Below are positions 7,768-37,422 of a stretch of DNA of 37,422 bases, in pieces; positions within the stretch are counted from its first letter, which is position 1; each line of letters begins with the position of its first letter. A program made the position numbers and the translations under genes. The DNA is from Smithella sp. Lineage in GTDB: Bacteria > Desulfobacterota > Syntrophia > Syntrophales > Smithellaceae. The notes under the pieces are model-generated. The model worked only from the letters and a program-made list of their open reading frames with translations, searched no databases and was not told the origin of the DNA. The stretch lies in the NCBI GenBank assembly GCA_012510495.1, contig JAAZHX010000052.1, positions 1 to 37,422 on the forward strand. The letters are read 5' to 3'.

Positions 7768-7788
7768 GGCTGCTGTCCTTTTTACGGA

Positions 7789-10224: not shown

Positions 10225-10327
10225 CTGTTCGCCTTTGCTCCTGGAGTTGGAAGTATGGTCCGCTTCCTTTCAGAATGGAAAATTCCTTATTTTACGAACA
10301 AATGTCTGTCAATAAAAAATCCGCGCC

Positions 10328-13713: not shown

Positions 13714-13718
13714 CGCCT

Positions 13719-15203: not shown

Positions 15204-15272
15204 ACACGAGTTTATCCTTCGTGGCCACTGGAATCGAAGACGAAAAAAAAGCTGAACTCTCAAATGACATGT

Positions 15273-21460: not shown

Positions 21461-22690
21461 TCAGCTCCTGCGACTCCGGGTCATCAGGATGATGCCGGCC
21501 ACGGCCGCAACCAGACAGAGACAGATATACAGCGCGAAGGCCAGGGAATAACTTTTCGTCCAGTCGTAAATAAAGCCGGAAAGCGGCACGCCCACCGCCG
21601 TTCCCAGCGTCGTGAAGATGTTGAGCAGTCCGTAGATCACCGCGAAATGTTTCTGCCCCAGAACTTTCGCCGTCATGAGCGGCGGCAGAACGGTGCGCAC
21701 CGCGATGGAAAAACCGAAAAGGATGCTGAAAACAACCGCCACCCACATCAGTTGCGCCCCGTACAGCAGGAGAATGGCAACAATCAGTCCGGCCATGCAG
21801 ACCAGATAGCTTTTCAAAAGGCCCAGCCGGTCGGCCAGACTGCCCGCCAGCACCTTGCCGACAATCAGCATGGCCATATGCAGGGACATCAGCGCCGTGG
21901 CAGTCGTGGAAGAAAATCCGATGTCCGTAAGGTAGGGCACGATGTGGTGCAAAACGCCCATGTTGGCGACGGCGATGAGCAGGATGATCGCGGCCAGAAG
22001 CCAGAAGGCGACGCCGCGGACCGCCGCGGAGGCCGTCACCCCCTCCTGTTCACCGGCCGTTTGGCTCGCCAGCGCGGCTTCACCGCCGTACGGCAACAGC
22101 CCCTTGTCAGCCGGCTTCGCGCGGACAATGAAAACCGCGGTCGGGATCGACAGAATGCCGATGATCAGGCCGAAGGCCAGATAGGCGGCCTGCCAGCCAT
22201 GGTGCAGGATGATCCAGTTGGCCAGCGGGTTGAAGATCATCCCGCCGACGCCCGTGGCGGCAAAGACAATCCCCATCGCCAGTCCCCTCCGGTCGATGAA
22301 CCAGTTGGTAATCATCATGGAGACGGGAATGATGTGCGATCCCGCGCTGCCGATCCCCAGAAATACGGCCAGAATGTAGAACTGCGGAAGCGTCCGGCAC
22401 TGGGAAAAGAGCGCGAAACTCGCGGCCATGATTGAGGTGGAGATCGTCATGATGACGCGGATGTCATAGCGTTCCAGAAGTTTACCCATCACCGGCGCCA
22501 TGACCATCATGGCCAGCGCCGCAACGGTGAAATACATAGTGAATCCGCCCCGGGTGAAGCCCAGGGATTCGGAAACGGGCTTAACAAAAACCCCCATGGA
22601 ATTCATGATGATTCCGATACCGGCAAAATTGAGAAAAAAAGCGCCGACGACAATCCACCATCCGTAGAAAATCTTCTGTTGTGATTTCAT
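21461..22690 (-). CDS. MFS transporter (monocarboxylate/oxalate-formate antiporter-like)
   Basis: Major facilitator of 409 residues with twelve hydrophobic segments. The N-terminal FYGWWIVVGAFFLNFAGIG, GVFVKPVSESLG and the mid segment DRRGLAMGIVFAATGVGGMI are typical of MFS members related to the oxalate/formate antiporter and monocarboxylate carriers. The central loop (residues about 200-225) is hydrophilic. As the last gene of the minus-strand catabolic series it probably imports the substrate or exports an organic acid product; the substrate is not evident. AAGG lies shortly before the ATG. The gap to the alcohol dehydrogenase gene (141 bases) is the largest in the series, so a separate promoter is possible, though I see no good -35/-10 pair in it. 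Confidence 0.9.
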   Translation of the reverse strand: MKSQQKIFYGWWIVVGAFFLNFAGIGIIMNSMGVFVKPVSESLGFTRGGFTMYFTVAALAMMVMAPVMGKLLERYDIRVIMTISTSIMAASFALFSQCRTLPQFYILAVFLGIGSAGSHIIPVSMMITNWFIDRRGLAMGIVFAATGVGGMIFNPLANWIILHHGWQAAYLAFGLIIGILSIPTAVFIVRAKPADKGLLPYGGEAALASQTAGEQEGVTASAAVRGVAFWLLAAIILLIAVANMGVLHHIVPYLTDIGFSSTTATALMSLHMAMLIVGKVLAGSLADRLGLLKSYLVCMAGLIVAILLLYGAQLMWVAVVFSILFGFSIAVRTVLPPLMTAKVLGQKHFAVIYGLLNIFTTLGTAVGVPLSGFIYDWTKSYSLAFALYICLCLVAAVAGIILMTRSRRS

Positions 22691-22831
22691 TGGACCTTCC
22701 CCTTTTAATAGTTATCGTTGTTCGTATGTTATTGAAAAGAACATCCTTACAGGCTGGAAAACTCATTCACTCGCATGACTTTCCATCTCCATGATTCCTG
22801 AATTTTCCCGCCTATCCAACGTGATACGACA

Positions 22832-24022
22832 TTATTTACTGAAGGACAGATCGAGGATAATATCAACAGCTTCCACGGGAAGCGGGAATCTGAAGCCGGC
22901 TATGTCGGTTTTGACGCGGAATCTCAAATCGTCCTTATCCTCAGGCGTGAGTTTATGCGGAAACACCGCCGGGATGCCCAGTTGTTTTTTGAAGTCTTCC
23001 ACCGCTGCGACCGCGACCCCATAGGTTTGTTCAGGAGTTAGGCCATCGGTCTTCACTCCAAAAGCCTCCGCAAAGTCACAAATTCTGGGCAGGTAAAGAG
23101 GAAAAAGAATGCTCATGACATGAGACATCAGGACGGCATTGGCCAGTCCATGCGATATATTCAGTTTAGGTCCGATGGCGTGAGCGAAGTTATGAATGGG
23201 CGCGGACCCGTTTGCTTTGGAATAGGCCTGCATGCCCATGTTGCTGGCTATAAGCATTTGCATACGGGCTTCCACATTCCTGCCGTCCTGAACGGCGATG
23301 GGCAGATACTTTTTGATCAGTTTAATGGCATGAATGGCAAAAGCGTCGGATAAGGAATTGGCATTTCTTGCAAAGAAGGCTTCAATGCAATGAGACAGGG
23401 CGTCACAACCGGTTTCCGCGGTTAAGCTCGGCGGCAGACTCAAGGTAACCTGCGGGTCCAAAACACAAACCTGCGCGGGGAGATGTGGGTGAACGATATT
23501 GCCCTTCAATCCTTCCTCTTCCACCATGATAACCGCTCCCGGCGAAGATTCAGCCCCGGTGCCGGCCGTGGTAGGCACGGCGATATGAGGAAAAGTGAGG
23601 GGTTGAACGGTCAGGCCTCCATGAAGTCCGGCGGTCGCACGCATGAGTTCCGCTATATCCCGAACCCCGTAGCCCAGCATGATTTTTAACCCTTTTACGG
23701 CATCCAATACGCTGCCGCCTCCAACGGCCAGGAGGCCTTCAACGCCATTTTCACCGCACCAGCGAAGGCACTCATTGACAATCAACGATTTTGCGTCCTG
23801 CTCAATTCCGTCATAGACACCGGCCACGATTGGCGCGCCCTGTATTTCGATAACGTCTTTTACCATATCAACCACACCGGCTTTCATCAGGCCTTTATCC
23901 GTGATGATCCCGATTCTTCTGGCGCCCATCGCTTTGAAGTGTGTACCGATCTGGGTAATACTTCCAAACCCGATATCCAAAACGCCACGGTGTTCCCAGG
24001 CAACGTATTGCGTCATGCTCAT
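22832..24022 (-). CDS. Iron-containing alcohol dehydrogenase
   Basis: Group III NAD(P)-dependent alcohol dehydrogenase, 396 residues, with the usual two-domain layout. Nucleotide-binding GGGS is at 101-104, the family signature PTTAGTGAES at 150-159, and the metal ligands are Asp207 and His211 (CDALSHCIEAF), His281 (FAHAIG) and His291 (ISHG). The expected job is interconversion of an alcohol and an aldehyde; substrate range cannot be predicted. AAGGAGG eight bases before MSMTQY gives a clear start. It sits 24 bases after the aldehyde dehydrogenase gene, which suggests the two act on the same carbon chain, together with the aldehyde:ferredoxin oxidoreductase upstream. Confidence 0.95.
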   Translation of the reverse strand: MSMTQYVAWEHRGVLDIGFGSITQIGTHFKAMGARRIGIITDKGLMKAGVVDMVKDVIEIQGAPIVAGVYDGIEQDAKSLIVNECLRWCGENGVEGLLAVGGGSVLDAVKGLKIMLGYGVRDIAELMRATAGLHGGLTVQPLTFPHIAVPTTAGTGAESSPGAVIMVEEEGLKGNIVHPHLPAQVCVLDPQVTLSLPPSLTAETGCDALSHCIEAFFARNANSLSDAFAIHAIKLIKKYLPIAVQDGRNVEARMQMLIASNMGMQAYSKANGSAPIHNFAHAIGPKLNISHGLANAVLMSHVMSILFPLYLPRICDFAEAFGVKTDGLTPEQTYGVAVAAVEDFKKQLGIPAVFPHKLTPEDKDDLRFRVKTDIAGFRFPLPVEAVDIILDLSFSK

Positions 24023-24046
24023 GTAAGAAACCTCCTTAGGCTTTAA

Positions 24047-25561
24047 TTAGTATTTGATCCCCAATAGATAGTTCCAGAACTTATCCTTGGCACTGGCGGT
24101 CATATCCTGGCAAATATGCTTCACATAGCTATATTCCCGGAGCGAATCAAATGCCTTCTCCGTACCGATACCGCTCTGTTTATATCCTCCGAACGGAGCA
24201 TCGGCTCTCGTTAAATGATAAATATTGATAAATACCGTCCCGGTGCGAATCCGGGTTGCAAGTTTCTGCGCGCGAGCGACGTTGGTGCTGACGATGCCTC
24301 CAGCCAGCCCGTACATCGTGTCATTGGCCATGGCCAGGGCTTCCTCATCGTCATCATAGGGGATAACGCATTGAACAGGTCCGAAGATTTCTTCCCGGAC
24401 TTGCTTCATCTGATTGTTGCAGTTCATGAAAATGGTGGGCTCAAAAAAGAAGCCACGATCATATTCCGGGCCTGCAAGACGGTTGCCGCCGCAGGCCGCC
24501 TCCGCCCCTTCTTCCCTGCCAATTGCAACATATCGCATGATGGTGTTCAGCTGTGCCTCGGAAGCAATGGGGCCCTGATCCGTCAGAGGATCCAATTGGT
24601 TCCCAATTTTGAGCAACTTAATTTTTTCGATCATGCCCGACACGAGGGCATCCTGCATCTTTCGCGGCACGAACAACCGTGTTCCCGATAAACAGATTTG
24701 GCCCTGATGAAAGAGGAAAGCCGTCAATCCTGTGTTAATTGCCACATCCAAGTCCGCATCATCGAGCACAATGAGAGGCGATTTTCCGCCCAGTTCAAGC
24801 GTGATTTTCTTGATCGTGTCCGCAGCCAAATGGTAAATTTCACGGCCTACTTCCGTCGATCCGGTTAAGGAAATCTTGCCGACATCAGGATGCCGCGCCA
24901 GGGCGTGACCTACCGTTCGGCCGGGACCTGTAACAACGTTCAACACGCCGTCCGGCACACCCGCTTCTTTCGCCAGACGAGCCAATTCCAGGGTTGTAAT
25001 GGGTGTGATGCTGGCAGGCTTCATGATCATGCTGTTGCCCATCGCCAGCGCCGGAGCAATTTTTGCGCCGGCTGAAGAAAGAGGAACATTCCAGGGGGCA
25101 ATGCCGAGACATACGCCGATGGGTTCACGTTTCATAAAGCTGTGAAGAGGCGCGGAAGGCGCGTAAGGAGCATACTCCACCTCGGGAAACAGATCAAGCA
25201 GCTGCGCCGTCATATGAAAGGACAAGAGGCAACTGCCGACATCGATTAAACTGGTTTGCCGGATGGGAGCGCCGCAGGTAAGCGACTCCAGGTAGGCTAA
25301 CCGGGCGCTGTTTTTGAAGAGCAGTTTGGCCATATTGCCTAAAATACGCGCTCTCTCACCCTTGCTCTTGTTGGCCCAGACCCCCGACTCGAAAGCTCTG
25401 CGGGATGCATCAACAGCCTTTTCCACATCTGCCGGCCCCGCCAGGGGCACTCGGGCTACGATCTCTTGATTGGCCGGATTGATAACATCCATCATCTCCC
25501 CTGATTCGCTATCCACCCATTGGCCGTCGATGAACATCTTGTATTCCATGATGTCGCTCAT
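24047..25561 (-). CDS. NAD(P)-dependent aldehyde dehydrogenase
   Basis: Aldehyde dehydrogenase superfamily, 504 residues, oxidising an aldehyde to the carboxylic acid. Seen are FIDGQWVDSESG at the N-terminus, IAPWNVP with Asn158, Lys181 in MIMKPAS, the cofactor turn LTGSTEVG (232-239), the general base Glu256 in LELGGKSP, and catalytic Cys290 in HQGQICLSGTR. All catalytic residues are present, which separates it from acylating or inactive homologues. AGGGGG nine bases before the ATG supports this start; a second Met at residue 5 is possible. The gene follows the AOR gene by 23 bases and precedes the iron alcohol dehydrogenase, forming an alcohol-aldehyde-acid block. Confidence 0.95.
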   Translation of the reverse strand: MSDIMEYKMFIDGQWVDSESGEMMDVINPANQEIVARVPLAGPADVEKAVDASRRAFESGVWANKSKGERARILGNMAKLLFKNSARLAYLESLTCGAPIRQTSLIDVGSCLLSFHMTAQLLDLFPEVEYAPYAPSAPLHSFMKREPIGVCLGIAPWNVPLSSAGAKIAPALAMGNSMIMKPASITPITTLELARLAKEAGVPDGVLNVVTGPGRTVGHALARHPDVGKISLTGSTEVGREIYHLAADTIKKITLELGGKSPLIVLDDADLDVAINTGLTAFLFHQGQICLSGTRLFVPRKMQDALVSGMIEKIKLLKIGNQLDPLTDQGPIASEAQLNTIMRYVAIGREEGAEAACGGNRLAGPEYDRGFFFEPTIFMNCNNQMKQVREEIFGPVQCVIPYDDDEEALAMANDTMYGLAGGIVSTNVARAQKLATRIRTGTVFINIYHLTRADAPFGGYKQSGIGTEKAFDSLREYSYVKHICQDMTASAKDKFWNYLLGIKY

Positions 25562-25584
25562 AAGTATTTACCCCCTAATGGATT

Positions 25585-27468
25585 TTATTCCTTTACTGTC
25601 TGCGACCAAACCACCTCGGCTTCTTCGATCAGGCCCAGTGCGATGAGTTTTTCACGGGACGACACGCCGCGGGCGGGATCGAATTGCATCAATTCGTAAA
25701 ACTGATTTTTCATCTCGTCAAAATAGATTTCAATGCCGGCAGTATCGCCGTCCCGGGCGGGTTCTTTCATGCGCGGGGTCAAATCGTCATCGGCCGCCCT
25801 GAAGCCGAATCGGTAGTTGATGCAGCGCTTCAGGCTGAAAACACGCAGGCCCGCCTCCATCATGGCGGGCACGTCATACCTATATCCGGCCGCCGCGTTG
25901 ATCAACTCCACAACCTCCGGAAGGGTCAGCGACCGGTCGGCAAACTGGCAGAGGCAGGCGCTGTTTTCGATGCTGCCGATCGCCGCCGCAAGCACCATGG
26001 TTTCGGCTTTCTTGACGTGCGTCAGCGCCTCCAAGTCGAATTCAAAGTTAATTTCAGGGTAGTTGCACGCTCCGGTTTCCATGAAATGCATCGCAGACTG
26101 CACATGGCAGGCGCCCCGGGGGCTCACCGCGTAGGCCAGGGCGTGACCGTGACCGCCCCTGGTGTCATGCATCGGCGCCTCCAGACCTTTGCTCTGCGCC
26201 GTATAGGCAATGGAATCGGCGCCGATGGAACGCGCCGCGGCCGCGCTCCCCATCGAAAGAAGAGCTCCCAGTTTGCCGTCCCGCACGGCCATCATCGGGA
26301 GAATCCTGTGCACCACCGTATCCATATCGCCCCAGATCAGCGGAATACCGCCGGTCTGCTCGTCCGACAGGTGTCCCTTTTCATAGGCTTCCATCGCCCA
26401 GGCAATCGTAGCGCCCGCGCTGATCGTATCCATGCCGAGATCATTGCAGATCCGGGCCGCCTTGCACACAGCCGCAAGGTCCGGGGATCCCTGCAGACAT
26501 CCGAACGCCACGACGGTCTCATATTCCGGGCCGGGCCCTTCCGCTACGGCAAACGGCCCTTCGTCCACCTGCACGATTCTCTTGCAGGCGACCGCGCAGT
26601 ACGCGCAGGTGGCGGTTTTTTTGAGATACGTCTCCGACAGGGTGCTCCCGGTAAGGGCGGAGGCCATTTCCTCGTCATAGCTGGATGTCCAGTTGCGCAT
26701 CGGCACGTCTCCGTCATACATGTGCCCCTCCAGATTCCCGGACGTGCCGAAGTCGTGAAGAACCTGGGAGATCAGATAATCTTTGATGCGCGGATTCAAC
26801 TCCCGGGCAAGCGACTTGATCCGATCCGGGTCGGCCAGAGAAAGCGTCCCGGCTCCGGATTGCACAACCAGCGCCTTCAGGTTCTTGGCGCCCATGACGG
26901 CGCCCATGCCGCACCGGCCGAAGGCATGGTGGGCCTCGTTGAGGATACAGGCAAAGGGAACTCCGTTTTCACCGGCCGGACCGATGACCAGGGACGTTGA
27001 CTTTTTCCCATAGGTTTTTTTGAGCTCCCGCGTGCACTCCAGAAGCCCCGTGCCCCATAGATTTCCCGCATCCCGGACGGACACGGATTCGTTTTCGATC
27101 ACCAGCACGGACGGCTTCTTTGCCCTGCCGGATAAAATCAAACCGTCGAATCCGGCGAGCCTGAACGCCGGCGGGAAATGGCCGCCGCAGGAGGATTCCG
27201 CAATGCCGCCGGTGAGCGGCGAACGCGCGGTCGCGTTCATCCGGCTGACGCCGGAAAGTTTGACGCCGGTCAGCGGGCCGTTCATCAGAATCAGAATCGC
27301 TTCGGGAGAAAGGGGATCGGCGGAAAAATCGGCCCGGTCCCAGAAGATTCTGGCTGCCAAGCCGCTGCCGCCGATATAGCGGCGGTAGGTTTCTTCCGGC
27401 AGTTGAAGAATGCTGACGGTCCCGCTGGAAAGATCAACGTCGGCAATCCGGCCTGTGTTTCCTTTCAT
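25585..27468 (-). CDS. Aldehyde:ferredoxin oxidoreductase (tungsten/molybdopterin, AOR family)
   Basis: Oxidises aldehydes to acids with ferredoxin, or reduces acids at low potential, using a bis-pterin tungsten site and one 4Fe-4S cluster. The 627 residues match the family. The cluster motif is C288-AY-C291-AVA-C295, with the distal Cys507 in ACLCQFA. RMNATARSPLTGG and GRCGMGAVMGAKNLKA are typical pterin-binding segments of the N-terminal domain. Residue 1 is set at MKGNTGRIADVDL because AAGGAG lies ten bases before it; the frame is open 14 codons further but without support. Oxygen-sensitive chemistry of this kind implies an anaerobe. It is redundant in reaction type with the NAD-linked dehydrogenase next to it, differing in electron carrier. 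Confidence 0.94.
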   Translation of the reverse strand: MKGNTGRIADVDLSSGTVSILQLPEETYRRYIGGSGLAARIFWDRADFSADPLSPEAILILMNGPLTGVKLSGVSRMNATARSPLTGGIAESSCGGHFPPAFRLAGFDGLILSGRAKKPSVLVIENESVSVRDAGNLWGTGLLECTRELKKTYGKKSTSLVIGPAGENGVPFACILNEAHHAFGRCGMGAVMGAKNLKALVVQSGAGTLSLADPDRIKSLARELNPRIKDYLISQVLHDFGTSGNLEGHMYDGDVPMRNWTSSYDEEMASALTGSTLSETYLKKTATCAYCAVACKRIVQVDEGPFAVAEGPGPEYETVVAFGCLQGSPDLAAVCKAARICNDLGMDTISAGATIAWAMEAYEKGHLSDEQTGGIPLIWGDMDTVVHRILPMMAVRDGKLGALLSMGSAAAARSIGADSIAYTAQSKGLEAPMHDTRGGHGHALAYAVSPRGACHVQSAMHFMETGACNYPEINFEFDLEALTHVKKAETMVLAAAIGSIENSACLCQFADRSLTLPEVVELINAAAGYRYDVPAMMEAGLRVFSLKRCINYRFGFRAADDDLTPRMKEPARDGDTAGIEIYFDEMKNQFYELMQFDPARGVSSREKLIALGLIEEAEVVWSQTVKE

Positions 27469-27559
27469 ATCAATTTCTCCTTGCCGTATGGCGCAAACCC
27501 TGTTCCGCAATCAACCCTGAACATTACGCCCCGCGGCCGCAATGTCACCGGAAGAAATT

Positions 27560-28000
27560 TTATTTTTTCGTGACGATCAGTCGCTCAAGGCCCATTTCCT
27601 TTAGAGCCACCGGAAAGAGCTGAAACGCGGGCCTGATGACCGGCAGCAGCTTCAGCATGGCGGTGACCTTTCCGCCTTGCTTGATGATGCCTTTGGTGAT
27701 CCCGGCAATCGGATTTTCCAGGCCGTGCCAGAACCGGTGGGAATGGTCGGCCGGCTGCTTGGACCACACATCTTCCTTGAGATCGCAGGGCCCCAGATAA
27801 AAGGAGCCGTAATAGCCGGGCTTCGACGGCGGATTTTTCAGGTCAATCGTGATTTCCGTGTCCGGGTCCGTGTACATGAATTTGATGATGATGCCCGCCT
27901 TACTCATTTTCGTGCCGATCTTTTCGTCTTTCAGCACCCGGTCCAGAAAATATCCGTAAATTCTGTAAAGATCATCCGCATCCTTGTAATACTGGCTCAT
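27560..28000 (-). CDS. SCP2-like (sterol carrier protein fold) protein
   Basis: Small 146-residue soluble protein. The pattern LYRIYGYFLDRVLKDEKIGTK, an extended stretch FMYTDPDTEITIDLKNP, then WSKQPADHSHRFWHGLENPI and KGIIKQGGKVTAMLKLLPVI fits the SCP2 sterol-transfer fold in its bacterial form, which binds hydrophobic ligands such as fatty acyl groups. No catalytic residues are evident. GGAGG seven bases before ATG fixes the start. Its place among acyl-CoA and aldehyde enzymes suggests that it carries or buffers a hydrophobic intermediate. The SCP2 call is from the overall pattern and is less sure than its neighbours; a function beyond lipid binding is not claimed. Confidence 0.65.
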   Translation of the reverse strand: MSQYYKDADDLYRIYGYFLDRVLKDEKIGTKMSKAGIIIKFMYTDPDTEITIDLKNPPSKPGYYGSFYLGPCDLKEDVWSKQPADHSHRFWHGLENPIAGITKGIIKQGGKVTAMLKLLPVIRPAFQLFPVALKEMGLERLIVTKK

Positions 28001-28090
28001 TGCCGCCTCCTTATATCAAGCGTTAAAAGTCGAAGAGAGATCCGTGCTGCAACTTCTCCGGATCAGCCAAATCGAGCGAAACGGGCAACA

Positions 28091-29200
28091 TCACCGTCTC
28101 GCATCTTCCAGGCTCTTGCCGGGTAGCAGTGTACAATCGAGAAAGAAATTTTCGTAGATCGCTCCGATCAGCAGCCGATTCTTCCAGGATGCGGCCACAC
28201 TGGAACCGGACAATTCTTTCCCGTCGTTCTGATAGACCCGCGCTATGTCGTAGCCGCCGTTTTTCAAAGGCAGCACACGCACCACCTCAGACGGGGAAAG
28301 CTTGGACGCATCCTTCGAGTGGGCCACAAACGATAACAGTTTGGTATGGCATCCGGCCCAGATCGACCCGTCGGGGAGAACGTCCAGGTTATCTACGCCC
28401 GTGTCAAGCTCGATGGTCCCCCGCCCGGCAAGCTCACCCGTTTGAACATTTCGTGAATAGACATGAATTTTTCGTCCCACGGTGGCACCCACATACACCG
28501 TTTTACCGTCGGGACTCTGCGCGATGCCGTTGGCATAACCGATGCCTCCCGCAACTTTCCTGAACTGTCCGCCATCGTAATAAAGAACGTAGGAAACCGG
28601 AAGCTGAAGATAATTTTCCAGCATCTTTCCCCACTTTGAAGTCCAGCCGTGATCAATGGTCACATAGAACTGACGGGGACCCACCCCGAGAATATCGTTC
28701 GGCGTTGTCAATTCCGGGCTTTTGATGGTTTCCAGATAGTGCAGTTTCCCGTCGCGATAGGAAAAAATCTCCACGGTGCAAACGCCTGTGGCTTCAAAAA
28801 AATGACTGTCTTCCCCCATGTTGATGACGAAGAGCAGCTTGCCGCCGTCGGGTCCGTGATATAAATTGATTCCGTGGGGTGTCAGATGGCCAGGGAAGTC
28901 TGTTTTCAAAAGGACGGGCTTGGAGCCGGGCGCCGCAAGATCATAGGCCAGGATGCCGGAGTAAGGACGCTTTTGACCGGCGATGGCCGCCCGGCGGTCG
29001 GTGAATGATCCCAGCGCCACGGCCGCGCCGCGATCGATATCGATATCCTCGACGCCGGGAAATCCCGGGACGGCGACAGAACTATACAGAGAAAAGGGTT
29101 CTATTCTTTTGAGTTCGCCGGCGTTCCAGAGTGTTTTTACGAGCAGCGCCCCAATCAGAACAACAACCGCACAAACCATAATGATGATCTTCTTTTTCAT
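28091..29200 (-). CDS. Paraoxonase/arylesterase-like beta-propeller lactonase, membrane-anchored
   Basis: Protein of 369 residues with an N-terminal hydrophobic anchor (residues 4-24) and a six-bladed propeller resembling serum paraoxonase. Residues matching the PON1 calcium ligands, by motif, are Glu51 and Asp52 (GVEDIDID), Asn168 and Asp169 (TPNDILGVG), Asn224 (GYANGIAQSPDG), Asp270 and Asn271 (GVDNLDVLPDG). His109 in LTPHGINLY matches PON1 His115, whereas the His134 position appears replaced or displaced by a short insertion. PON enzymes hydrolyse lactones and aryl esters, and their N-terminal anchor is retained. Translation starts at the second Met of the frame, because AAGGAGG lies eight bases before it. 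A lactone-opening step in the pathway is an inference. Confidence 0.83.
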   Translation of the reverse strand: MKKKIIIMVCAVVVLIGALLVKTLWNAGELKRIEPFSLYSSVAVPGFPGVEDIDIDRGAAVALGSFTDRRAAIAGQKRPYSGILAYDLAAPGSKPVLLKTDFPGHLTPHGINLYHGPDGGKLLFVINMGEDSHFFEATGVCTVEIFSYRDGKLHYLETIKSPELTTPNDILGVGPRQFYVTIDHGWTSKWGKMLENYLQLPVSYVLYYDGGQFRKVAGGIGYANGIAQSPDGKTVYVGATVGRKIHVYSRNVQTGELAGRGTIELDTGVDNLDVLPDGSIWAGCHTKLLSFVAHSKDASKLSPSEVVRVLPLKNGGYDIARVYQNDGKELSGSSVAASWKNRLLIGAIYENFFLDCTLLPGKSLEDARR

Positions 29201-29239
29201 GCCTTGTTCCTCCTTGTTCACGCCTCCGGAAAAGGACGT

Positions 29240-30400: not shown

Positions 30401-30425
30401 GTTCATTCCTTAGCTAAAGTATTGG

Positions 30426-31793
30426 TTAGATCAGTGAAGCTAATTCTTTTATATTATTTGTCTTTTCCATGTTCAAAATCGTGTCGACGATTCGATCCAC
30501 ATTGTTTTGATCCCGTCTGCCTGCGAAAAACTTCACTTTTTGCGCGATGTCTCCGGCTTCCATCGGATCACGCGGATCACCTTTGGGAATGTTCACCGTT
30601 TTCACCAGACGTTCGCCGTTTTTCAGCAGGATTTCCACACGGCTCGCGGTTTTGTCCGGATACATTTTATTCAGTTCGTCATCGGTTTTCACTGTCACTT
30701 TCTGTCGCAGCGCGATAATCGCCGGATCGACAATACGCCGCTCCGTGAGCTGCGCGGGACCCAGCGCACCGTCTAGGATGCAGGCCGCCACGACATACGG
30801 AATGGAAAACTGCGCGGAGACAAAACTGCCGCCTTCCGGAACGCCCTTCCCCACGGCCAGAGCGGCCACACCGTAAGTGAACACCTCGACGCCATCCACA
30901 TCATCCGGGACAAACCCTTTTTCCTTTTTCAGCGTGAGCGTCGCCTGCGCCGCACCATGCGTGTGCCGGCAGGCAGTGTAAGGCTTGAAATAAACGTCGT
31001 TGATGGAATAATGCTCTCCCAGATTTTCCGTGATGCGCTCCGGTTTGGCGTCCACTTTCATGGTGATCTGCGTGATGCCGCCCTTGAGCTCCGTCCCTTC
31101 CAGAACAAACGGACTGCCGGTGATGCCCTTTCCCGCGAGCCCCGCCGCCATGATGCCGGCGCTCGCCGCCTGGCCGCCCTGAACAATCTTTACGGTATAG
31201 CCGCCCATAAGCTGCTCCGCCATGGAAACGGGCAGAATATAGCCGGCAATGCCGATGGCGTTGAGCATCACGGGATAGGCCTGCCCCATCAGTTTGGAAA
31301 CCGCCACGGCTGAGCCTAACGTTCCGCAGGTGCCGGTGGGCAAAAATCCCGACAGGGTGTGATAGGGATGCATGGCTGCCGCTACCCGGTTGGAGACCTC
31401 GTAACCCGTCACTACCGCCTCGATCAGACGCTTGCCGGTAAGTCCCAGACTTTCCGCAACGGCCAGCGCCGCCGGAATGACAGACACGCCCGAATGATTG
31501 CCTCCGAAGCGGAGCCCGTCCTGCGCCTCGATGGCCTCGGCGGTCAGTCCGTTGATGAAAGCGGCGTTCTGTAATCCGGTCTTGAATCCGCAGCCCAGCG
31601 CCGTCGCGGCTTCCGGGCCGCCCAGCGACCGGACAAAGTCAATCGACGAGCGCACGGCATCCAGTTCCAGAGATCCGTAAATATTGGCCACATAGTCCAG
31701 GACGCAGAGTTTCGCCTTGTGCCGCACCTCTTCCGGCAGGGTATCAAAAGACAGATCCGAACAAAACCTGATCAGTTGTTGCGTGTGCTCCAT
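30426..31793 (-). CDS. MmgE/PrpD family protein
   Basis: Member of the family that contains 2-methylcitrate dehydratase, cis-aconitate decarboxylase and epimerases of dicarboxylic acids; 455 residues, normal length. Family landmarks are RHKAKLCVLDYVANIYG near the N-terminus, GFLPTGTCGTLGSA (149-162), Lys202 in YTVKIVQGGQAA and FKPYTACRHTHGAAQA (269-284). Asp92 and His100 are kept. The His that usually follows GF in GFHPTGT is Leu151 here, so the chemistry may differ from methylcitrate dehydration or decarboxylation. AAAGGAGG lies nine bases before the ATG. It stands between the CoA-transferase and the acyl-CoA dehydrogenase genes, implying action on a hydroxy or unsaturated di/tricarboxylic intermediate. 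No exact reaction is assigned. Confidence 0.88.
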   Translation of the reverse strand: MEHTQQLIRFCSDLSFDTLPEEVRHKAKLCVLDYVANIYGSLELDAVRSSIDFVRSLGGPEAATALGCGFKTGLQNAAFINGLTAEAIEAQDGLRFGGNHSGVSVIPAALAVAESLGLTGKRLIEAVVTGYEVSNRVAAAMHPYHTLSGFLPTGTCGTLGSAVAVSKLMGQAYPVMLNAIGIAGYILPVSMAEQLMGGYTVKIVQGGQAASAGIMAAGLAGKGITGSPFVLEGTELKGGITQITMKVDAKPERITENLGEHYSINDVYFKPYTACRHTHGAAQATLTLKKEKGFVPDDVDGVEVFTYGVAALAVGKGVPEGGSFVSAQFSIPYVVAACILDGALGPAQLTERRIVDPAIIALRQKVTVKTDDELNKMYPDKTASRVEILLKNGERLVKTVNIPKGDPRDPMEAGDIAQKVKFFAGRRDQNNVDRIVDTILNMEKTNNIKELASLI

Positions 31794-31853
31794 AGCTCAT
31801 CTCCTCCTTTAAAAAACGGAATGTCCCGGGCGGGAACAACCGGTTAAACGCTC

Positions 31854-32654
31854 CTACACATATCCGCGCTTCTCGTAGATCGTGATCATCCGGTGCGGAT
31901 CGATGACTTCCCGGATGACGCGGATTTCCTCGGCACGGGGCGGCTCGGTTTCATGGACATCATCGCTCACCTTGAGGTCCCACGGAGTCAGCTTGACCAC
32001 TTCGTCCACCGATGTCCCGGGATGAAAGCTTTCGAGATAGGCCTCTTTGGTCGCCGCATCAAAACGCAGAACGGCCTTGTTGGTAATGATGACCTGCGGA
32101 CCCGTGTCCGGCGGAAGCCCCCATCGCTCCCGGTCGCCCGGGCCGTCCAGATAGCCGGGCGTTGTGATGAAATCCACCTTTGCGGCCAGGCTGCGCGTGT
32201 TGTGAAGCGCAATGATGAGAACCCTTTTGGCAAGCGCTCCGATGGGGTTCGCGCCGCCGGAGCCGGGAAGGCGGCTTTTCGGCTTTGCATAATCGCCGAT
32301 GGCGGTGGTGTTGATGTTTCCGTACCTGTCGATCTGGCTTCCGGCCAGAAATCCCACATCCACCCATCCGCCCTGCAAAAACATTCCCATGACATCCGTG
32401 AGTCCGCCGATCATCGCCGCGCCGGGATTCAGACAGGGATCTCCCACGGAAAGCGCGGGCCGCGCGGGCCGTGCGTCAAACACGCCCGATTCCTGCATCA
32501 GCGTGGCTTTGGGCGCGTGCGTGTAACGGGCGATGTTCGCCGACATGGTGGGGAAACCCGTTCCCACGACCACAATGTCCCCGTCCCGGATTTCCCGGGC
32601 GCCGCAGCAGGCCATCAATTCCGGCTTGATATAATCACTGGGATGATTGCTCAT
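31854..32654 (-). CDS. CoA-transferase subunit B (glutaconate CoA-transferase type)
   Basis: Beta subunit of a class I CoA-transferase, 266 residues. LMQESGVFDARP holds Glu55, matching the catalytic Glu of glutaconate CoA-transferase (GctB Glu54) that forms the glutamyl-CoA thioester. GGWVDVGFLAGSQIDRYGNINTTAIGDY and GSGGANPIGALAKRV are typical for the family. The related cholesterol ring-opening enzyme IpdAB lacks this Glu, so true CoA transfer is favoured. AAAGGAGG precedes the start, and the gene follows subunit A by 15 bases. Together they would activate a free acid produced earlier in the pathway, probably with acetyl-CoA or succinyl-CoA as donor; donor and acceptor are unknown. Confidence 0.92.
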   Translation of the reverse strand: MSNHPSDYIKPELMACCGAREIRDGDIVVVGTGFPTMSANIARYTHAPKATLMQESGVFDARPARPALSVGDPCLNPGAAMIGGLTDVMGMFLQGGWVDVGFLAGSQIDRYGNINTTAIGDYAKPKSRLPGSGGANPIGALAKRVLIIALHNTRSLAAKVDFITTPGYLDGPGDRERWGLPPDTGPQVIITNKAVLRFDAATKEAYLESFHPGTSVDEVVKLTPWDLKVSDDVHETEPPRAEEIRVIREVIDPHRMITIYEKRGYV

Positions 32655-32669
32655 GCGTCCACCTCCTTT

Positions 32670-33605
32670 TCAGTACGTGTAGGATACGGGGTAGCCGTAG
32701 TCGAATGTCGCCTGCAGTTTTTTGTACTGGGCATATCCGAACTTTTGAATGTAGTGATTGACGTACTCCGTGCGGTCCTTCACGCCGAACACCCATTCGT
32801 CCAGAAACGCCTGAAATTCCTCGACGGTGTTGGAGGCTTCCTTGTACAGGTAGCCGTAAGCCAGATCCATGTCGTAGAAGCCGGGCGTGTATCCGGGATG
32901 CGCGCCGAAGGGCTCCTCGGTCACCGCGACAACCTTGAACGCCGGTACGATAGTGCGGGACGGATCCTTACCGATCGTTTCCCGGCTGACGATCCGTTCG
33001 CAGCTCACGATGACCTTACGCGCCGCGTTGGCACCCCACTTGCAGTCGCCGCCGATGCCCCACATCTGGGCGTTCCCCTCCTCGTCCGCCTGCTGCACGT
33101 GAATGATCGCCACATCCGGACGCAGCGCGGGCGCCAGCATCACGGGGCTGCCGTCAAAGGGGGAATCGATCATCTTGTACTTGCCGTCCCCCATAAAAGA
33201 TTTAACCTTCATCAGATCGGTCCCCACCATGTCCTTGACCGGCACGAAGGGCATACCCATCGCGCCCGCCATCAGCATGAGCGGAAGAGAAAGGTTGGTG
33301 TATTCCTCCAGCTCGATTCTGTGGGGGATCCCCTTTTCGATCGATCGCCGGTAACAGCGGGCAAGACCGTACACTCCCAGCGAGATAAAGGTGGCGATGA
33401 ACCGCTTCACACAACCTGCGCCGATCAGCATGTCAAAGTCGTCCGCGGCGTTGCTCCGCGTGATGGTCAGATCCTTCTTTTTCTGACGGATGATCTCGTG
33501 GATGGACGCAAACGGCGGCCTGCAGACATAGCCGCCGACAAACAGAAACTCCCCGTCATGGACAAATTTGCCAATGGCGTCCGCAGTGGACATCACCTTG
33601 CCCAT
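32670..33605 (-). CDS. CoA-transferase subunit A (glutaconate CoA-transferase type)
   Basis: Alpha subunit partner of the preceding entry, 311 residues. N-terminal MSTADAIGKFVHDGEFLFVGG and KKKDLTITRSNAADDFDMLI show the Rossmann-like fold of class I CoA-transferases. ADEEGNAQMWGIGGDCKWGANAARKVIVSCERI is the conserved middle part found in GctA-like subunits. The N-terminal RPPFASIHEI and CVKRFIATFISLGVYGL are also family-like. AAAGGAGG before MGKVMS gives a firm start. It lies 56 bases downstream of the glycyl radical enzyme gene and 15 bases before subunit B, so it is translated as part of the same transcript. The acceptor acid cannot be named from sequence. Confidence 0.92.
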   Translation of the reverse strand: MGKVMSTADAIGKFVHDGEFLFVGGYVCRPPFASIHEIIRQKKKDLTITRSNAADDFDMLIGAGCVKRFIATFISLGVYGLARCYRRSIEKGIPHRIELEEYTNLSLPLMLMAGAMGMPFVPVKDMVGTDLMKVKSFMGDGKYKMIDSPFDGSPVMLAPALRPDVAIIHVQQADEEGNAQMWGIGGDCKWGANAARKVIVSCERIVSRETIGKDPSRTIVPAFKVVAVTEEPFGAHPGYTPGFYDMDLAYGYLYKEASNTVEEFQAFLDEWVFGVKDRTEYVNHYIQKFGYAQYKKLQATFDYGYPVSYTY

Positions 33606-33661
33606 ACCCCTCCTCCTTTGCGCGAAATGGCGGTGTTTCCGCCTTCAACGATCCTGCGCGG

Positions 33662-36043
33662 TTAGATGTCAAATTCGGTTCTGCTGATGATCTCGTCCTG
33701 GGCGATTTCGCTGAGGCCCACAAATTCCGCGGAGTAGCCGCTGACCCGCACAAACAGGTCGCGATGCTTCTCCGGATGCTGTTGCGCGTCCCGGAGAACC
33801 TCCGAATCCACCATGTTGAACTGGACCTGCGTTCCGCCGTTTCTGAAATACGTTTGGATCAGCGCCGCCAGGTGTTCCGTCCGGATTTTCTTCCCCTGAA
33901 AACGCATGTTGAGATTGACACCGTTCGTGGCCCGGATCACCGGAAGCTTGACAACGGAATTCATGATCGCCGTAGGACCGGATACGGCGTTGCCTGTCGT
34001 GGGCGTAATGCCATTGCCCAGAACGTCTCCGGCAAACCGGCCGTCCGGCGTGGCGCCCGTGAAAGCGCCCATGGTAATGTGAAAGCCGACCGAAAACACG
34101 CCCGGCCAGAAAAAACCTTTCCGGAAATTCCGGTAGTCGGACAAAACGTCGCAGTAGTGATCCATCACGCGGACGCCCATCGCGTCAACGTTGTCGTTGT
34201 CGTTGCCGTACTTGGGAACACGGTTCAAGAAGTAGGCGCGCTTGTCCTCCGCGTCCTGCCAGTCTTGCGACAGCCACTGCGCAAGGTCGGCCATCGTAAA
34301 GAGTTTGTCTTCAAAGACCGTTTTTTTCACCGAGTAGAGGCTGTCCACCACATTGGCAAACCCCATGAGCTGCACGCCCGTGGAATTGTAGTGTGCGCCT
34401 CCCCGCGTCAGGTCCAGACCTTTTTCCAAACAACCGTCCACCATGGCCGAAGCGAAGGGCGAGGGAACATTTTCGGCAATCGTGCGGTCGAGCACTGCCA
34501 TGCCCCGGACCATCTGGTTGATAAAATGACGCACCTGCCCGTCATAGGCGCTCCAGACGTCTTCAAAATTTTCAAAGGCCGCCGGGTCTCCCGTTTCGAC
34601 ACCGCTCGGATACCCGAAGATATTGTCAATCCCGTTGGACAGGGCCAGCTCCAGGCATTTGATGCCGCTGAACTGCACCGCGAAGGTGGATCCGAAAGTT
34701 TTCCCCTGCGCGTTCGGCTCCAGACAGCCGACCATCCCGTAGTTGCGGGCATCTTCGAGGGTGTGGCCCGCATTGACAAGCGACCGGATAATCGCTTCGT
34801 CGTTGAAAAAATGCATCAGCACACCGTCGCGGGTATAGTCAACCGCCCGGCGCATCAGCTCCGCGGGACAGTCCGGCGAAACGCGGACGCCGAAATTGGG
34901 CTGAACCGTCCGCACGTCGGCAAATGCGTCCAGGGCAATGTAGCTCATCTCGTTGACGGCGTCTTTCCCGTCAATCCCCATGCCGCCCACGGTGACGTTC
35001 TGCGTTGTTTTTCCTTCCGTCCCCTCTCCGCCGGGGATGAAGGCCTCTTCCAGCACATTCCAGATCTCATTGGTTTTTACAAAAAGCATGGCCGTCAGTT
35101 CCCGGGCCTGCGCTTGTGTAATCTCGCCCGCTTCCGCGTCTCTCTGATAATAGGGGGACAGAATCTGGTCGATCCGGCCCAGGGAAATGGAATTCCCCCC
35201 CGATTCGATCTGGGAAACCAGATGAATAAAATAGAGGCTCTGAACCGCTTCATGAAACGTTTCGGCAGGGTGTTCGGGAACGCGGGCGCAAACGCGCGCG
35301 ATTTCCTGAAGCTCCGCTTTCCGGCCGGGGTCGGATTCGGCCGCCGCCATGGCGAGAGCCCGTTCGCTGTAACGGTTCGCGAAGACGATGACCGCCCGGC
35401 AGCTCCGGATCACCGCCTCATAAAAGAGGACCTTTTCACCTTTTTTCTCTTCCGCGGAAAGCTCCGCAAGCTTCTGTCCGGCTTCGTCAATGACAGCCGT
35501 CAGCCCGCCTTCCAGGATCTTGTCATGGTTCATGGTAAAATGACCGATCCCGTATGTAATCTCGAGCATCATGGTAAAGATGTACTTGTCCATGTCCGTC
35601 AGAATATCTTCCGGCATGCTTTTCTGCATCTGCTCCTCGACGGTTTTCCCCTTCCAGAAGGGAAGAATCCGGGTCGCCAGCTCATCCTTTTCCGCCTGCG
35701 TGATCAGCGCGCGCTGCAGGACGCGTCGATCGAAATTTTCCAGGTCTCCCTCGATCCACAGCGACTTGTTTTCCGGAAACAGGGGCGCGCCCTTGAGCTT
35801 GGACGTCCGGCATCCGACAATGACTTCGTCTTCGCGGATGATGACGCTGATGTTTTTCAGAATATGCTCCAGGGCGAGGCTCATCCTCGTCAGAGGCGGC
35901 TTGTCCCAGTGAAGCCTCATGGATTCGGTCAGGAAGCGGGCGCGCTCGATGCAGACTTCCTGGGGCGCCTCGATAATTCTCCAGCGGAGCACCTCAATTC
36001 GGGAAGGTTCCGCCGGTTGCGACAGAGCTTGCTGCGTACTCAT
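33662..36043 (-). CDS. Glycyl radical enzyme (PFL-like; GCxEP subgroup, substrate unknown)
   Basis: Oxygen-sensitive radical enzyme of 793 residues, about the length of glycerol and hydroxyproline dehydratases. The glycyl radical loop RVSGY carries Gly769, and the thiyl radical Cys440 lies in VGCLEPNAQGKT with general-base candidate Glu442. His168 (GIGHF) is kept. Against glycerol dehydratase as I remember it (His281, Ser282, Asp447), the sequence has Asn284, Ser285 and Phe454, so two polar substrate contacts are gone. This argues against a plain diol dehydratase and for a less polar substrate. It is shorter than benzylsuccinate/alkylsuccinate synthases as recalled, and no small partner subunits are adjacent. 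No activating radical SAM gene is in the window. AGGAGG six bases before ATG fixes the start. Confidence 0.93.
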   Translation of the reverse strand: MSTQQALSQPAEPSRIEVLRWRIIEAPQEVCIERARFLTESMRLHWDKPPLTRMSLALEHILKNISVIIREDEVIVGCRTSKLKGAPLFPENKSLWIEGDLENFDRRVLQRALITQAEKDELATRILPFWKGKTVEEQMQKSMPEDILTDMDKYIFTMMLEITYGIGHFTMNHDKILEGGLTAVIDEAGQKLAELSAEEKKGEKVLFYEAVIRSCRAVIVFANRYSERALAMAAAESDPGRKAELQEIARVCARVPEHPAETFHEAVQSLYFIHLVSQIESGGNSISLGRIDQILSPYYQRDAEAGEITQAQARELTAMLFVKTNEIWNVLEEAFIPGGEGTEGKTTQNVTVGGMGIDGKDAVNEMSYIALDAFADVRTVQPNFGVRVSPDCPAELMRRAVDYTRDGVLMHFFNDEAIIRSLVNAGHTLEDARNYGMVGCLEPNAQGKTFGSTFAVQFSGIKCLELALSNGIDNIFGYPSGVETGDPAAFENFEDVWSAYDGQVRHFINQMVRGMAVLDRTIAENVPSPFASAMVDGCLEKGLDLTRGGAHYNSTGVQLMGFANVVDSLYSVKKTVFEDKLFTMADLAQWLSQDWQDAEDKRAYFLNRVPKYGNDNDNVDAMGVRVMDHYCDVLSDYRNFRKGFFWPGVFSVGFHITMGAFTGATPDGRFAGDVLGNGITPTTGNAVSGPTAIMNSVVKLPVIRATNGVNLNMRFQGKKIRTEHLAALIQTYFRNGGTQVQFNMVDSEVLRDAQQHPEKHRDLFVRVSGYSAEFVGLSEIAQDEIISRTEFDI

Positions 36044-36062
36044 AAAACACCTCCTGTGAGCG

Positions 36063-36893
36063 CTAAACCTTGATGTTCATGTGGTTGACCAGAATCGCGT
36101 CCCGGACCGATTTCGGAAGAAACTGATTGAGCCACAGAAAAAAGCTGCTCATGAAATCGATCTGATTGAAGAACGCCGGCTTTTCCGCTTCGATGACCTT
36201 CATAATCTTTTCGGCTGCAACGGGCGGCGTGGGCGCCGTCTTGATGAGTTCATTGTCCCGCTCGATAAACCGCCGGGCGCGGTCGCGGTAAGGAGAATTC
36301 TCGGGCGGCAGAACGTGGATCTTGGCCGCGAACGTCGTGGATACCTGCGCCGGCTCGATCAGCGCCACCTGGATGCCGAAGGGCTCCACTTCGTATTTCA
36401 TGGAAACCATCATTCCGGTGACGGCAAATTTGCTTGCGGAATATATGGATTCGAAAGGAAAGGGAATGCGCCCTACCAGCGACGACATGGCGATGAGTTT
36501 GCCTGCTCGACGCTCACGCATGGACGGAAGAAACGCCTGGAAAATCGCCGCTGCGCCGATGACGTTGATTTCAAGGCACTTGAGCGCTTTCTCCAGATGG
36601 ACTTCCTCGAAGGGGCTGAAGAATCCGATGCCCACGTTCGACAGCACCGTATCCACACGACCGTACCGGGCGAGCACCTGATCGCGAAATTTCAAAATTG
36701 CCGGGCGGTCGGTGATATCGATCGTTTCCAGCAGGTGATCGCCGCCGATGCTCTTCAATTCTGACGCCAGCGACGCGATCCCTTTCTCGTCCACATCAAA
36801 GCCCGCCACCGAATGGCCGGCCTTCGCGAGCATTGTGGCCACATGTCGCCCCATCCCGTCCGCCAAGCCGGTAATCACTACAATCTGTCCCAT
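36063..36893 (-). CDS. Short-chain dehydrogenase/reductase
   Basis: Classical SDR of 276 residues. The dinucleotide motif TGLADGMG is at 8-15, and Asp33 at the end of the second strand (GFDVDE) suggests NAD(H) rather than NADP(H). LSNVG stands in place of the usual NNAG (84-88), Asn110 is kept, and the catalytic set is Ser138, Tyr151 and Lys155 (IYSASK). The C-terminal end is hydrophobic (FMSSFFLWLNQFLP), as in SDRs that contact membranes or bulky lipids. GGGAGG precedes the ATG. It lies 19 bases before the glycyl radical enzyme gene, so it is likely the oxidoreductase for the same substrate or product; the substrate is unknown. Confidence 0.92.
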   Translation of the reverse strand: MGQIVVITGLADGMGRHVATMLAKAGHSVAGFDVDEKGIASLASELKSIGGDHLLETIDITDRPAILKFRDQVLARYGRVDTVLSNVGIGFFSPFEEVHLEKALKCLEINVIGAAAIFQAFLPSMRERRAGKLIAMSSLVGRIPFPFESIYSASKFAVTGMMVSMKYEVEPFGIQVALIEPAQVSTTFAAKIHVLPPENSPYRDRARRFIERDNELIKTAPTPPVAAEKIMKVIEAEKPAFFNQIDFMSSFFLWLNQFLPKSVRDAILVNHMNIKV

Positions 36894-36926
36894 ACCCTCA
36901 CCTCCCGTTGATTCAGTCCTTTCGGG

Positions 36927-37422
36927 TTACCTTCCCCCGAGGTTTGCGCGATGCCATTCTCCAATCTGCTTCATGGATTGACGGAAATCCGGATAGATCA
37001 TCCGGTATCCCGTTTTCTTCAGTTTGCTGTTGTCCACCACGTAATCCGCATAAAGATATTTCACCGCGTCCAGTTCCAAATCCGGGATGCACCCTTTGCG
37101 CGCAGAGGCCATTCCATCGAGCTTTGCAACGATTTTGACCAGCCAGAGCGGCAGATGCGTCGTGGGAGGTTTGGCGCCGAAGGCCTCCGAAGCCATTTTC
37201 AGGGCTTCCTCCAGCGTCGGATGCGTGTCCTCGGCCAGATTGTACGCCTGCCCGACGGCAGAATCGGTAAGGGATAAATGATAAACGGCAGCGGCCACGT
37301 CTTCCGCGCGCACGTTGGAAAGGAGCTGCCGGCCGTTTCCCGGAATTGCGGTGATGCTGGAGGGGCGCGAAAAAGCCTTTCCCGCGCCGTCATTGCAGCG
37401 GGGGCCGTACACGGTGCAGGGC
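36927..37422 (-). CDS. NAD-dependent epimerase/dehydratase (extended SDR), C-terminal part
   Basis: The last about 165 residues of an extended SDR; the 5' part lies beyond the right edge. The first visible codons read PCTVYGPRC, the conserved VYGPR segment of this family, followed by IPGNGRQLLSNVRAEDVAAAV and QAYNLAEDTHPTLEEAL, which are the substrate-side elements. The Rossmann motif and the YxxxK catalytic pair are outside the window, so activity cannot be judged. Members act on nucleotide sugars but also on steroid-like and aryl carbonyls. It is 33 bases upstream of the SDR gene and in the same direction, so it is probably the earliest gene of the operon seen here. Confidence 0.85.
   Translation of the reverse strand, partial: PCTVYGPRCNDGAGKAFSRPSSITAIPGNGRQLLSNVRAEDVAAAVYHLSLTDSAVGQAYNLAEDTHPTLEEALKMASEAFGAKPPTTHLPLWLVKIVAKLDGMASARKGCIPDLELDAVKYLYADYVVDNSKLKKTGYRMIYPDFRQSMKQIGEWHRANLGGR

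Follow-up and report, generated by a model that had tools for sequence, protein, structure and literature searches.

The window analysed here is a stretch of 37,422 nucleotides from Smithella sp. and forms a complete contig (C192) of a 2.8 Mb assembly in 332 contigs. Between positions 21461 and 37422 its minus strand carries a run of 12 complete genes and one gene truncated at the contig end, with a glycyl radical enzyme (GRE) among the products (Table 1). A first-pass annotation of the sequence had treated the thirteen genes as one catabolic operon with no described counterpart. Comparison with related loci showed that the unit is not this thirteen-gene set, it is a nine-gene core that includes the GRE and is accompanied by varying accessory genes. 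The absence of a described pathway found support: searches of open-licence literature listed no paper that describes the gene set.

Table 1. Genes of the run, listed from the contig end, and two further genes of related loci (rows without coordinates), with their occurrence at 44 related loci (present/absent with room/no room)
Gene product	Coordinates	Strand	Basis	Occurrence
PadR regulator				27/3/14
Extended short-chain dehydrogenase/reductase (SDR), NAD-epimerase/3beta-HSD-like; 3' part only, 164 aa	36927..37421	-	weak HpnA match	30/1/13
Classical SDR, catalytic Tyr151/Lys155	36063..36893	-	Pfam adh_short	35/0/9
GRE of an unassigned eliminase-type subfamily	33662..36043	-	Pfam PFL-like and Gly_radical	
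CoA-transferase subunit A (CoTA), GctA-like	32670..33605	-	Pfam CoA_trans; PDB 1poi_A	31/8/5
CoA-transferase subunit B (CoTB), GctB-like, conserved Glu55	31854..32654	-	PDB 1poi_B	28/7/9
MmgE/PrpD family protein (MmgE)	30426..31793	-	Pfam MmgE_PrpD_N and C	26/6/12
Acyl-CoA dehydrogenase (ACAD), Glu244, Gly365	29240..30406	-	Pfam; PDB alignments	27/3/14
PON/arylesterase-like lactonase (PON), accessory	28091..29221	-	Pfam Arylesterase	5/17/22
SCP2-like small protein, 146 aa	27560..28000	-	via distant relatives, no own Pfam match	26/2/16
AOR-type aldehyde ferredoxin oxidoreductase (AOR)	25585..27510	-	Pfam AFOR_N, AFOR_C	11/11/22
Aldehyde dehydrogenase (ALDH), first gene of two-gene cassette	24047..25561	-	Pfam Aldedh	0/20/24
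Iron-type alcohol dehydrogenase (Fe-ADH), second cassette gene	22832..24022	-	Pfam Fe-ADH	0/20/24
MFS carrier, bile-salt/lactate-carrier-like by weak similarity, accessory	21461..22690	-	Pfam MFS_1	6/16/22
Second-type ALDH				4/17/23

Open reading frames, Pfam and NCBIfam confirmed that all the genes named in the first-pass annotation are present on the minus strand with the identities given, and the measured intergenic distances of 15-141 bases agree with the proposed spacing of mostly 15-140. The strong ribosome binding sites described there were found in part: purine-rich boxes, judged by eye, lie 5' of the other starts, whereas the AOR gene as called has a TTG start and no visible ribosome site. 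An ATG at codon 15 is the likelier start of AOR. Splitting of the run by internal promoters or terminators had been named as evidence that would speak against a single operon. Promoter-like sites (7, against 8.3 in shuffles) and terminator-like sites (15, against 17.7) are not above the shuffled counts, so they neither split nor support the run. A weak terminator-like hairpin with a T run lies at 31822-31838 on the minus strand, in the gap between CoTB and MmgE. No tRNA and no Rfam family were detected in the window, and every NCBIfam match of the MFS carrier is under its cut-off.

A scan of genome contigs gave 48 loci, of which the 44 with a GRE of at least 60% identity were scored and four were omitted. 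The score for presence was set at 50% identity or more to a single query, and diverged activases and the AORs of L077, L085, L092 and L100 (38-40%) therefore fall outside these counts. All 44 loci are metagenome-assembled genomes (MAGs) by title and include Smithella and other Syntrophales, Spirochaetota, Desulfobacterales, SAR324 and a Zymogenaceae bin; several come from groundwater, sediments and digesters, as judged by their titles. Among 155 genomes of the order that were searched, 13 besides the window's own have a GRE with 66-96% identity to that of the window, and the next best match is at 40%. The closest complete GRE among the named loci belongs to a Smithella MAG (95% identity).

Room for all eight partners of the GRE exists in 18 loci, and the complete set is found in 15 of them in one shared order: PadR, extended SDR, SDR, GRE, CoTA, CoTB, MmgE, ACAD and SCP2. 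These full-set loci are MAGs of Spirochaetota, Desulfobacterota and SAR324, and some of the 15 carry an inserted DUF362, ALDH or PON gene. The same nine genes stand in order in two further genomes (L155 and L157) that were reached via the SCP2-like protein; L156 is the same contig as L071 and is not independent. Only L094 and L096 have room for the SCP2-like gene and are without it. In other phyla the core genes are found again in this order, mostly at 56-89% identity, which is more than chance would give. The claim that all thirteen genes form one unit did not hold, as only the sub-block from the SDRs through GRE, CoTA, CoTB, MmgE and ACAD to SCP2, with PadR in front, is conserved, and PON, AOR, MFS, ALDH and Fe-ADH come and go among relatives. 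Furthermore, a Mantel test on 18-29 loci per gene, uncorrected for shared organism history, showed that GRE distances between loci correlate with the distances of each of seven partners (r 0.43-0.88, lowest for ACAD; each reached in 0 of 2000 permutations).

The GRE tree places the window in a six-row fork with Spirochaetota L057, a Fibrobacteres bin, L080, L087 and Smithella (support 100/100), which two more Spirochaetota sequences join at 82/79; the outgroup branches are 5-10 changes per column long, making the depth of the stem unreliable. This mixing of the window and Smithella with Spirochaetota suggests that the core block was transferred between phyla, mis-binning apart. Two bins titled Fibrobacteres (L055) and Lentisphaerae (L088) hold incomplete copies of the operon; their GREs share 83 and 94% identity with that of the window, so that mis-binning or a recent transfer is suspected. 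Possibly a contaminant is the 4-kb contig L090 (732-3131), titled Mycobacterium pinniadriaticum, which carries a 30%-identical GRE and an activase-like gene.

The accessory genes differ in their histories. Two genus-mates, L049 and L051, have no ALDH-FeADH pair (about 22676-25599) at this site, although their operon genes on either side of it are 87-94% identical to those of the window. A genome from a different genus (L036, G026) carries the pair between SDR and GRE, at 83.9% nucleotide identity; core genes of that locus are 66-75% and the MFS gene 78% identical to those of the window. A two-gene alcohol/aldehyde cassette therefore occupies two different sites of the same operon in two lineages. 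The PON-like gene is open in the window, is split over two frames in L051/L054 (one contig; L051 2724-3844) and is reduced to a remnant of 43 aa in L049 (10222-10350); it looks like a gene undergoing loss in the genus-mates. The aldehyde-oxidising genes near the core vary between AOR, ALDH and the second ALDH. Other proteins adjoining the core are a GDSL lipase (L037, L045), an alpha/beta hydrolase (L041, L043), a penicillin-amidase-like protein (L063) and a DUF362 protein (L058, L059, L061).

The GRE has a glycyl-radical domain (Pfam Gly_radical) with Gly769 as its conserved glycine. It passes only the broad NCBIfam PFL2-3 subfamily model TIGR01774 (693.9 against a cut-off of 678.2) and is below all NCBIfam equivalog cut-offs compared, namely those of HypD (the best, 554.6 against 1100), HpfG/HpsG, PRK09983, CutC, indoleacetate and hydroxyphenylacetate decarboxylase, and PFL. 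The nearest PDB entry by sequence is glycerol dehydratase 1r8w (565 bits), and a Foldseek search with an AlphaFold model (mean pLDDT 79, pTM 0.85) also returned glycerol and propanediol dehydratases as nearest. Cys440 and Glu442 of the CXE motif, His168 and Gly769 align with Cys433, Glu435, His164 and Gly763 of glycerol dehydratase and are invariant in 38 of 38 in-group rows, of which about 36 are distinct, given the duplicates L034/L080 and L051/L054. By contrast, five positions, numbered from the pairwise alignment with glycerol dehydratase, are changed in each of these 38 rows: N156 to L160, H281 to N284, Y339 to T347, D447 to F454 and Y640 to F650. We take the five residues of 1r8w to be those of its diol-binding pocket. 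Three of the five changed polar positions are Leu or Phe.

On this evidence the GRE is placed in an eliminase-type subfamily apart from the named GREs and nearest to glycerol/propanediol dehydratase. We infer that it performs an elimination on a hydroxylated, more hydrophobic substrate, with the CXE motif and the proximity to glycerol/propanediol dehydratase in both sequence and fold pointing to a 1,2-elimination. The radical activation or cleavage proposed in the first-pass annotation would accordingly be kept as a radical step and given up as activation of a hydrocarbon: the reaction is most likely a 1,2-elimination on a substrate that is already hydroxylated. In other eliminases, the glutamate of the CXE motif holds the substrate hydroxyl, according to the available portions of PMC8473560 and PMC7077986.

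The remaining core proteins were compared with known families; the rows counted for the SDR, CoTB, MmgE and ACAD include the window and the duplicate pairs (here also L049/L083, among others). Full-length relatives of the extended SDR have about 335 aa, and a 334-aa relative matches Epimerase and 3Beta_HSD; the partial window protein reaches 24 bits against the HpnA cut-off of 368. The catalytic Tyr and Lys of the classical SDR are conserved in 44 of 44 rows. CoTA and CoTB have the two subunits of 1poi as nearest PDB chains (1poi_A, E 1.2e-56; 1poi_B, E 5.3e-58), and Glu55 of CoTB, presumably the catalytic glutamate of family I CoA-transferases, aligns with the glutamate of glutaconate CoA-transferase and is found in 36 of 36 rows. 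A ring hydrolase of the IpdAB type (6co6) was considered for CoTAB and rejected, its matches being far weaker (E 1.4e-19 and 9e-11) than those of GctAB.

The nearest PDB entries of MmgE are IDS-epimerase, followed by cis-aconitate decarboxylases, and its scores against the NCBIfam PrpD models are far under the cut-off. Asp92, His100, Lys202, His277 and His279 are present in 34 of 34 rows. At position 151, which is a His in IDS-epimerase, 33 of 34 rows have Leu and the remaining one Met; the His before PT in the GWHPT motif presumably belongs to the catalytic histidine set of cis-aconitate decarboxylase and 2-methylcitrate dehydratase. Since Leu replaces this His, MmgE is probably not a plain decarboxylase or methylcitrate dehydratase. 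ACAD has all three Pfam domains (N, middle and C). Its Glu244, in a DIER motif, and Gly365 are found in 38 of 38 rows, and three aligned PDB enzymes have Glu at position 365. We assume Glu244 to stand at the base position of isovaleryl- and long-chain acyl-CoA dehydrogenases, which would allow branched or long acyl groups. The best NCBIfam names for ACAD, 3-sulfinopropanoyl-CoA desulfinase and acryloyl-CoA reductase, were rejected at only 346 of 600 and 341 of 640 bits.

The SCP2-like label of the first-pass annotation gained support from distant relatives, whereas the window protein itself has no match to Pfam PF02036. In an alignment with distant relatives, seven of nine rows match SCP2 at E<=0.1 (best 3.1e-8), and hhalign against authentic SCP2 domains gave E 3.8e-5, compared with 2.9e-3 for a reversed control and 0.22-0.64 for five other families. 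The same profile comparison made with the distant relatives left out is weak (0.018, against 0.089 reversed). The SCP2-like protein is a probable hydrophobic-ligand carrier, judging from these profile matches. In six genomes of the phylum, an SCP2-like domain is fused ahead of a long ORF (open frames of 848-872 aa; for example, L137 1480-3393 on the plus strand, L141 1-1968 on the minus strand and L143 1471-3402 on the plus strand) that resembles, by eye, thiamine-diphosphate dehydrogenase E1 alpha+beta.

The earlier suggestion to look beyond the contig end proved useful in relatives, which show PadR upstream of the operon and, in four cases (L037, L038, L039 and L045), a GRE activase adjoining it. 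The window's own genome gave no match to the PadR of a genus-mate, a result that does not prove absence; we take it for a gap in the assembly, since the contig breaks off within the neighbouring extended SDR gene. No dedicated activase is found among the annotated window genes. The own genome contains two strong activase matches, each close to another GRE, and activase-like proteins were found in seven of seven carrier genomes searched. The two further GREs of the own genome (L002, 1084-4104, contig C132; L003, 1021-3708, contig C206; both on the minus strand) pass no NCBIfam cut-off, and one has about 200 extra N-terminal residues. Elsewhere in the window, positions 4023-15263 of the minus strand hold a glycogen metabolism cluster with genes for phosphoglucomutase-type, GH13 amylase-type, phosphorylase, GlgA, GlgB and 4-alpha-glucanotransferase proteins.

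Reduced versions of the locus help to divide the operon. Of the 39 loci with room for CoTA, 8 do not have it beside the GRE. In five such loci (L056, L075, L080, L087 and L097) the GRE and SCP2 are retained, with the SDRs where there is room, and CoTAB-MmgE is missing; their genomes gave CoTA matches of at most 42%, and one of them no match at all, compared with 88% and 78% in two full-operon genomes searched as controls. This genome-wide search covered the five only, and L062, L067 and L081 were scored at the locus: nothing was seen after the GRE in L062, and ACAD directly follows it in L067 and L081. L080 and L097 have an ACAD of 58% identity and an AMP-binding ligase downstream, together with AOR and MFS. 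MmgE is absent with room in six loci, all of which are also without CoTA. Because the reduced loci keep the GRE side and lose CoTAB-MmgE, we read the operon as two parts, a front yielding an aldehyde or acid and a back in which this product is activated and oxidised. The joint absence of MmgE and CoTA in these six loci places MmgE probably on the acid or CoA side.

Building on the established genes, their co-conservation and the active-site changes, we infer that the genes form a modular operon for the catabolism of a hydrophobic, hydroxylated compound, probably under PadR control, a reading in which we have about even confidence. In this model, the PadR regulator would switch the operon, the two SDRs would adjust hydroxyl and keto groups of the substrate, and the SCP2-like protein would carry substrate or product. 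The GRE, charged by an activase encoded elsewhere in the genome, would abstract a hydrogen adjacent to the hydroxyl that Glu442 holds, with expulsion of a beta leaving group, either hydroxyl or alkoxyl. Its substrate would be a hydrophobic vicinal diol or a beta-hydroxy ether, bound in a pocket more hydrophobic than that of glycerol dehydratase, and its product an aldehyde. The steps after the aldehyde are drawn from gene identities: AOR or an ALDH may oxidise the aldehyde to the acid, Fe-ADH, where present, would join the alcohol and aldehyde levels, and the GctAB-type transferase, or perhaps the AMP-forming ligase in the two reduced versions that have one, would make the CoA thioester. ACAD, with Glu244 as base, would then desaturate the thioester. 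The outline given in the first-pass annotation, a radical step, CoA transfer and dehydrogenation on a probably hydrophobic compound together with alcohol/aldehyde handling, is supported.

Several observations weigh against this model. Nine of the 22 AOR-scorable loci are without AOR and the second ALDH at the 50% threshold (L077 among them has a 39% AOR), so not every locus encodes aldehyde oxidation. No reaction is assigned to MmgE or to either SDR, and the pathway does not explain the ACAD that stands right after the GRE without CoTA in L067 and L081. The hydrophobic pocket rests on the alignment and on the roles ascribed to the pocket residues, and L160 is not distinctive, since 18 of the 21 rows of the outgroup (a set that includes L093 and L099, read in a wrong frame and not GREs) also carry Ile, Leu, Ala or Val there. 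The structure model has pLDDT below 50 at 153-163, 331-346, 438-446, 652-685 and 766-771, stretches that include the Cys and Gly loops of the GRE. The predicted structure of the SCP2-like protein is of low confidence (pLDDT 62) with no significant fold match, and the membership in SCP2 is indirect.

It was also considered that the run might consist of unrelated catabolic genes that share a strand and not one pathway. In its favour, five of the thirteen genes do not share the conservation of the others, and two of the five came in together as a cassette. Against it, the eight partner genes of the GRE, including PadR, stand in one order in 15 of the 18 loci with room and in L155 and L157, and the distances between GRE and partners correlate. 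We regard this explanation as very improbable overall: it is contradicted for the core and is possible for PON, MFS, AOR, ALDH and Fe-ADH. Equally improbable in our view is that the GRE adds a hydrocarbon to fumarate in the manner of benzyl- or alkylsuccinate synthase, with CoTAB and ACAD processing the succinate adduct. The hosts do include Smithella and Desulfobacterales, and the limonenylsuccinate operon, as far as the available part of PMC12583861 describes it, also has a CoA-transferase and an acyl-CoA dehydrogenase after its GRE. Against this stand the scores of TutD/BssA (301 bits) and MasD (285) compared with 565 for glycerol dehydratase, the first appearance of Bss and MasD chains at ranks 44 and 46 of the fold search, and the retained CXE motif of eliminases. 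The gaps of 19 and 56 bases flanking the GRE leave no space for a small subunit, and the loci with room in which CoTA is not beside the GRE also argue against a succinate adduct. PDB entry 8iof, labelled benzylsuccinate synthase in the sequence search, is a hydroxyproline-type dehydratase by its entry title.

The other alternatives keep the eliminase chemistry or the hydrophobic substrate and differ in the compound. Lipid-type substrates are favoured because of the SCP2-like protein and the hydrolase neighbours in a few relatives. An unlikely but tangible candidate is a cyclic or branched compound of the terpenoid, steroid or hopanoid type, bearing a polyol side chain that the operon would shorten. 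The SCP2-like protein, the weak resemblance of the extended SDR to 3beta-HSD and the hopanoid-associated HpnA model, and the ACAD glutamate at the isovaleryl/long-chain position would suit such a compound; the HpnA match is nevertheless far under its cut-off and the conserved core has no ring-cleavage or ketosteroid gene. We give slightly less credence to the GRE as an oxygen-independent ether lyase for glycerol ether lipids (mono- and dialkylglycerols, perhaps archaeol-derived). Such an enzyme would abstract the hydrogen next to the free glycerol hydroxyl and expel the alkoxyl chain, as choline lyase expels trimethylamine, and the neighbouring hydrolases, SDR/ADH/ALDH/AOR, CoA transfer and ACAD would then burn the chain; nothing in the data points to glycerol ethers in particular. 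Clearly more doubtful is a beta-etherase acting on hydroxylated aromatic ethers such as lignin-like beta-O-4 dimers, which would yield a phenol plus a carbonyl compound. Elimination of an alkoxyl group in a hydrophobic pocket would be compatible with that role, and PadR-type regulators are often tied to phenolic acids; however, no demethylase, benzoyl-CoA or phenol-handling gene belongs to the conserved core, and the SCP2-like protein and hydrolase neighbours point rather to lipids.

A GRE subfamily with its own conserved catabolic operon in MAGs of more than one phylum means that a part of anaerobic carbon flow may go unread. Anaerobes of several phyla share the core, which probably lets them consume a greasy alcohol or ether. 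The nine-gene core is a testable unit, with one GRE and one activase, and offers marker genes for metatranscriptomes. If the modular operon were to act on glycerol ether lipids, the GRE would be an anaerobic counterpart of alkylglycerol monooxygenase (AGMO) and would bear on the recycling of ether lipids in anoxic sediments and digesters. AGMO targets the same glyceryl ether bond, and needs oxygen because it is a monooxygenase. The ether cleavage treated in PMC9201399 and PMC13109099 is a chemical one, used for analysing lipids, and gave no lead. It is tetrahydrobiopterin-dependent and is called the only known enzyme for glyceryl ether cleavage in the portions of PMC3617469 and PMC9192799 that were available.

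Among known systems, B12-independent glycerol/propanediol dehydratase (1r8w, 5i2g, 9rcp) is closest to the GRE: it shares the fold (TM about 0.9), the length, the CXE motif and the His and Gly residues, and the fold alignments show 35-38% identity. It differs in the polar pocket positions, and the operon described here adds genes for the CoA-transferase, MmgE, ACAD and the SCP2-like protein. Choline TMA-lyase and isethionate sulfite-lyase share the eliminase logic of expelling a beta leaving group, and hydroxyproline dehydratase is an eliminase too but uses its own CXE glutamate differently, as stated in the accessible parts of PMC8473560 and PMC7077986. These three enzymes are 26-31% identical to the GRE in the fold search, and the GRE is far under the cut-offs of the hydroxyproline dehydratase and choline-lyase equivalogs. 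GctAB (1poi) is the nearest PDB entry for both CoA-transferase subunits, with a catalytic-type Glu in B, and is here linked to a GRE. The limonenylsuccinate synthase operon lss/lrc of syntrophic Desulfobacterota resembles the operon in combining a GRE, a CoA-transferase and an ACAD for a hydrophobic substrate. As far as the available part of PMC12583861 goes, it differs in having a Bss-type fumarate-adding GRE, small subunits, and hydratase, thiolase and Etf genes; none of the small-subunit, hydratase, thiolase or Etf genes is among the thirteen genes of the window.

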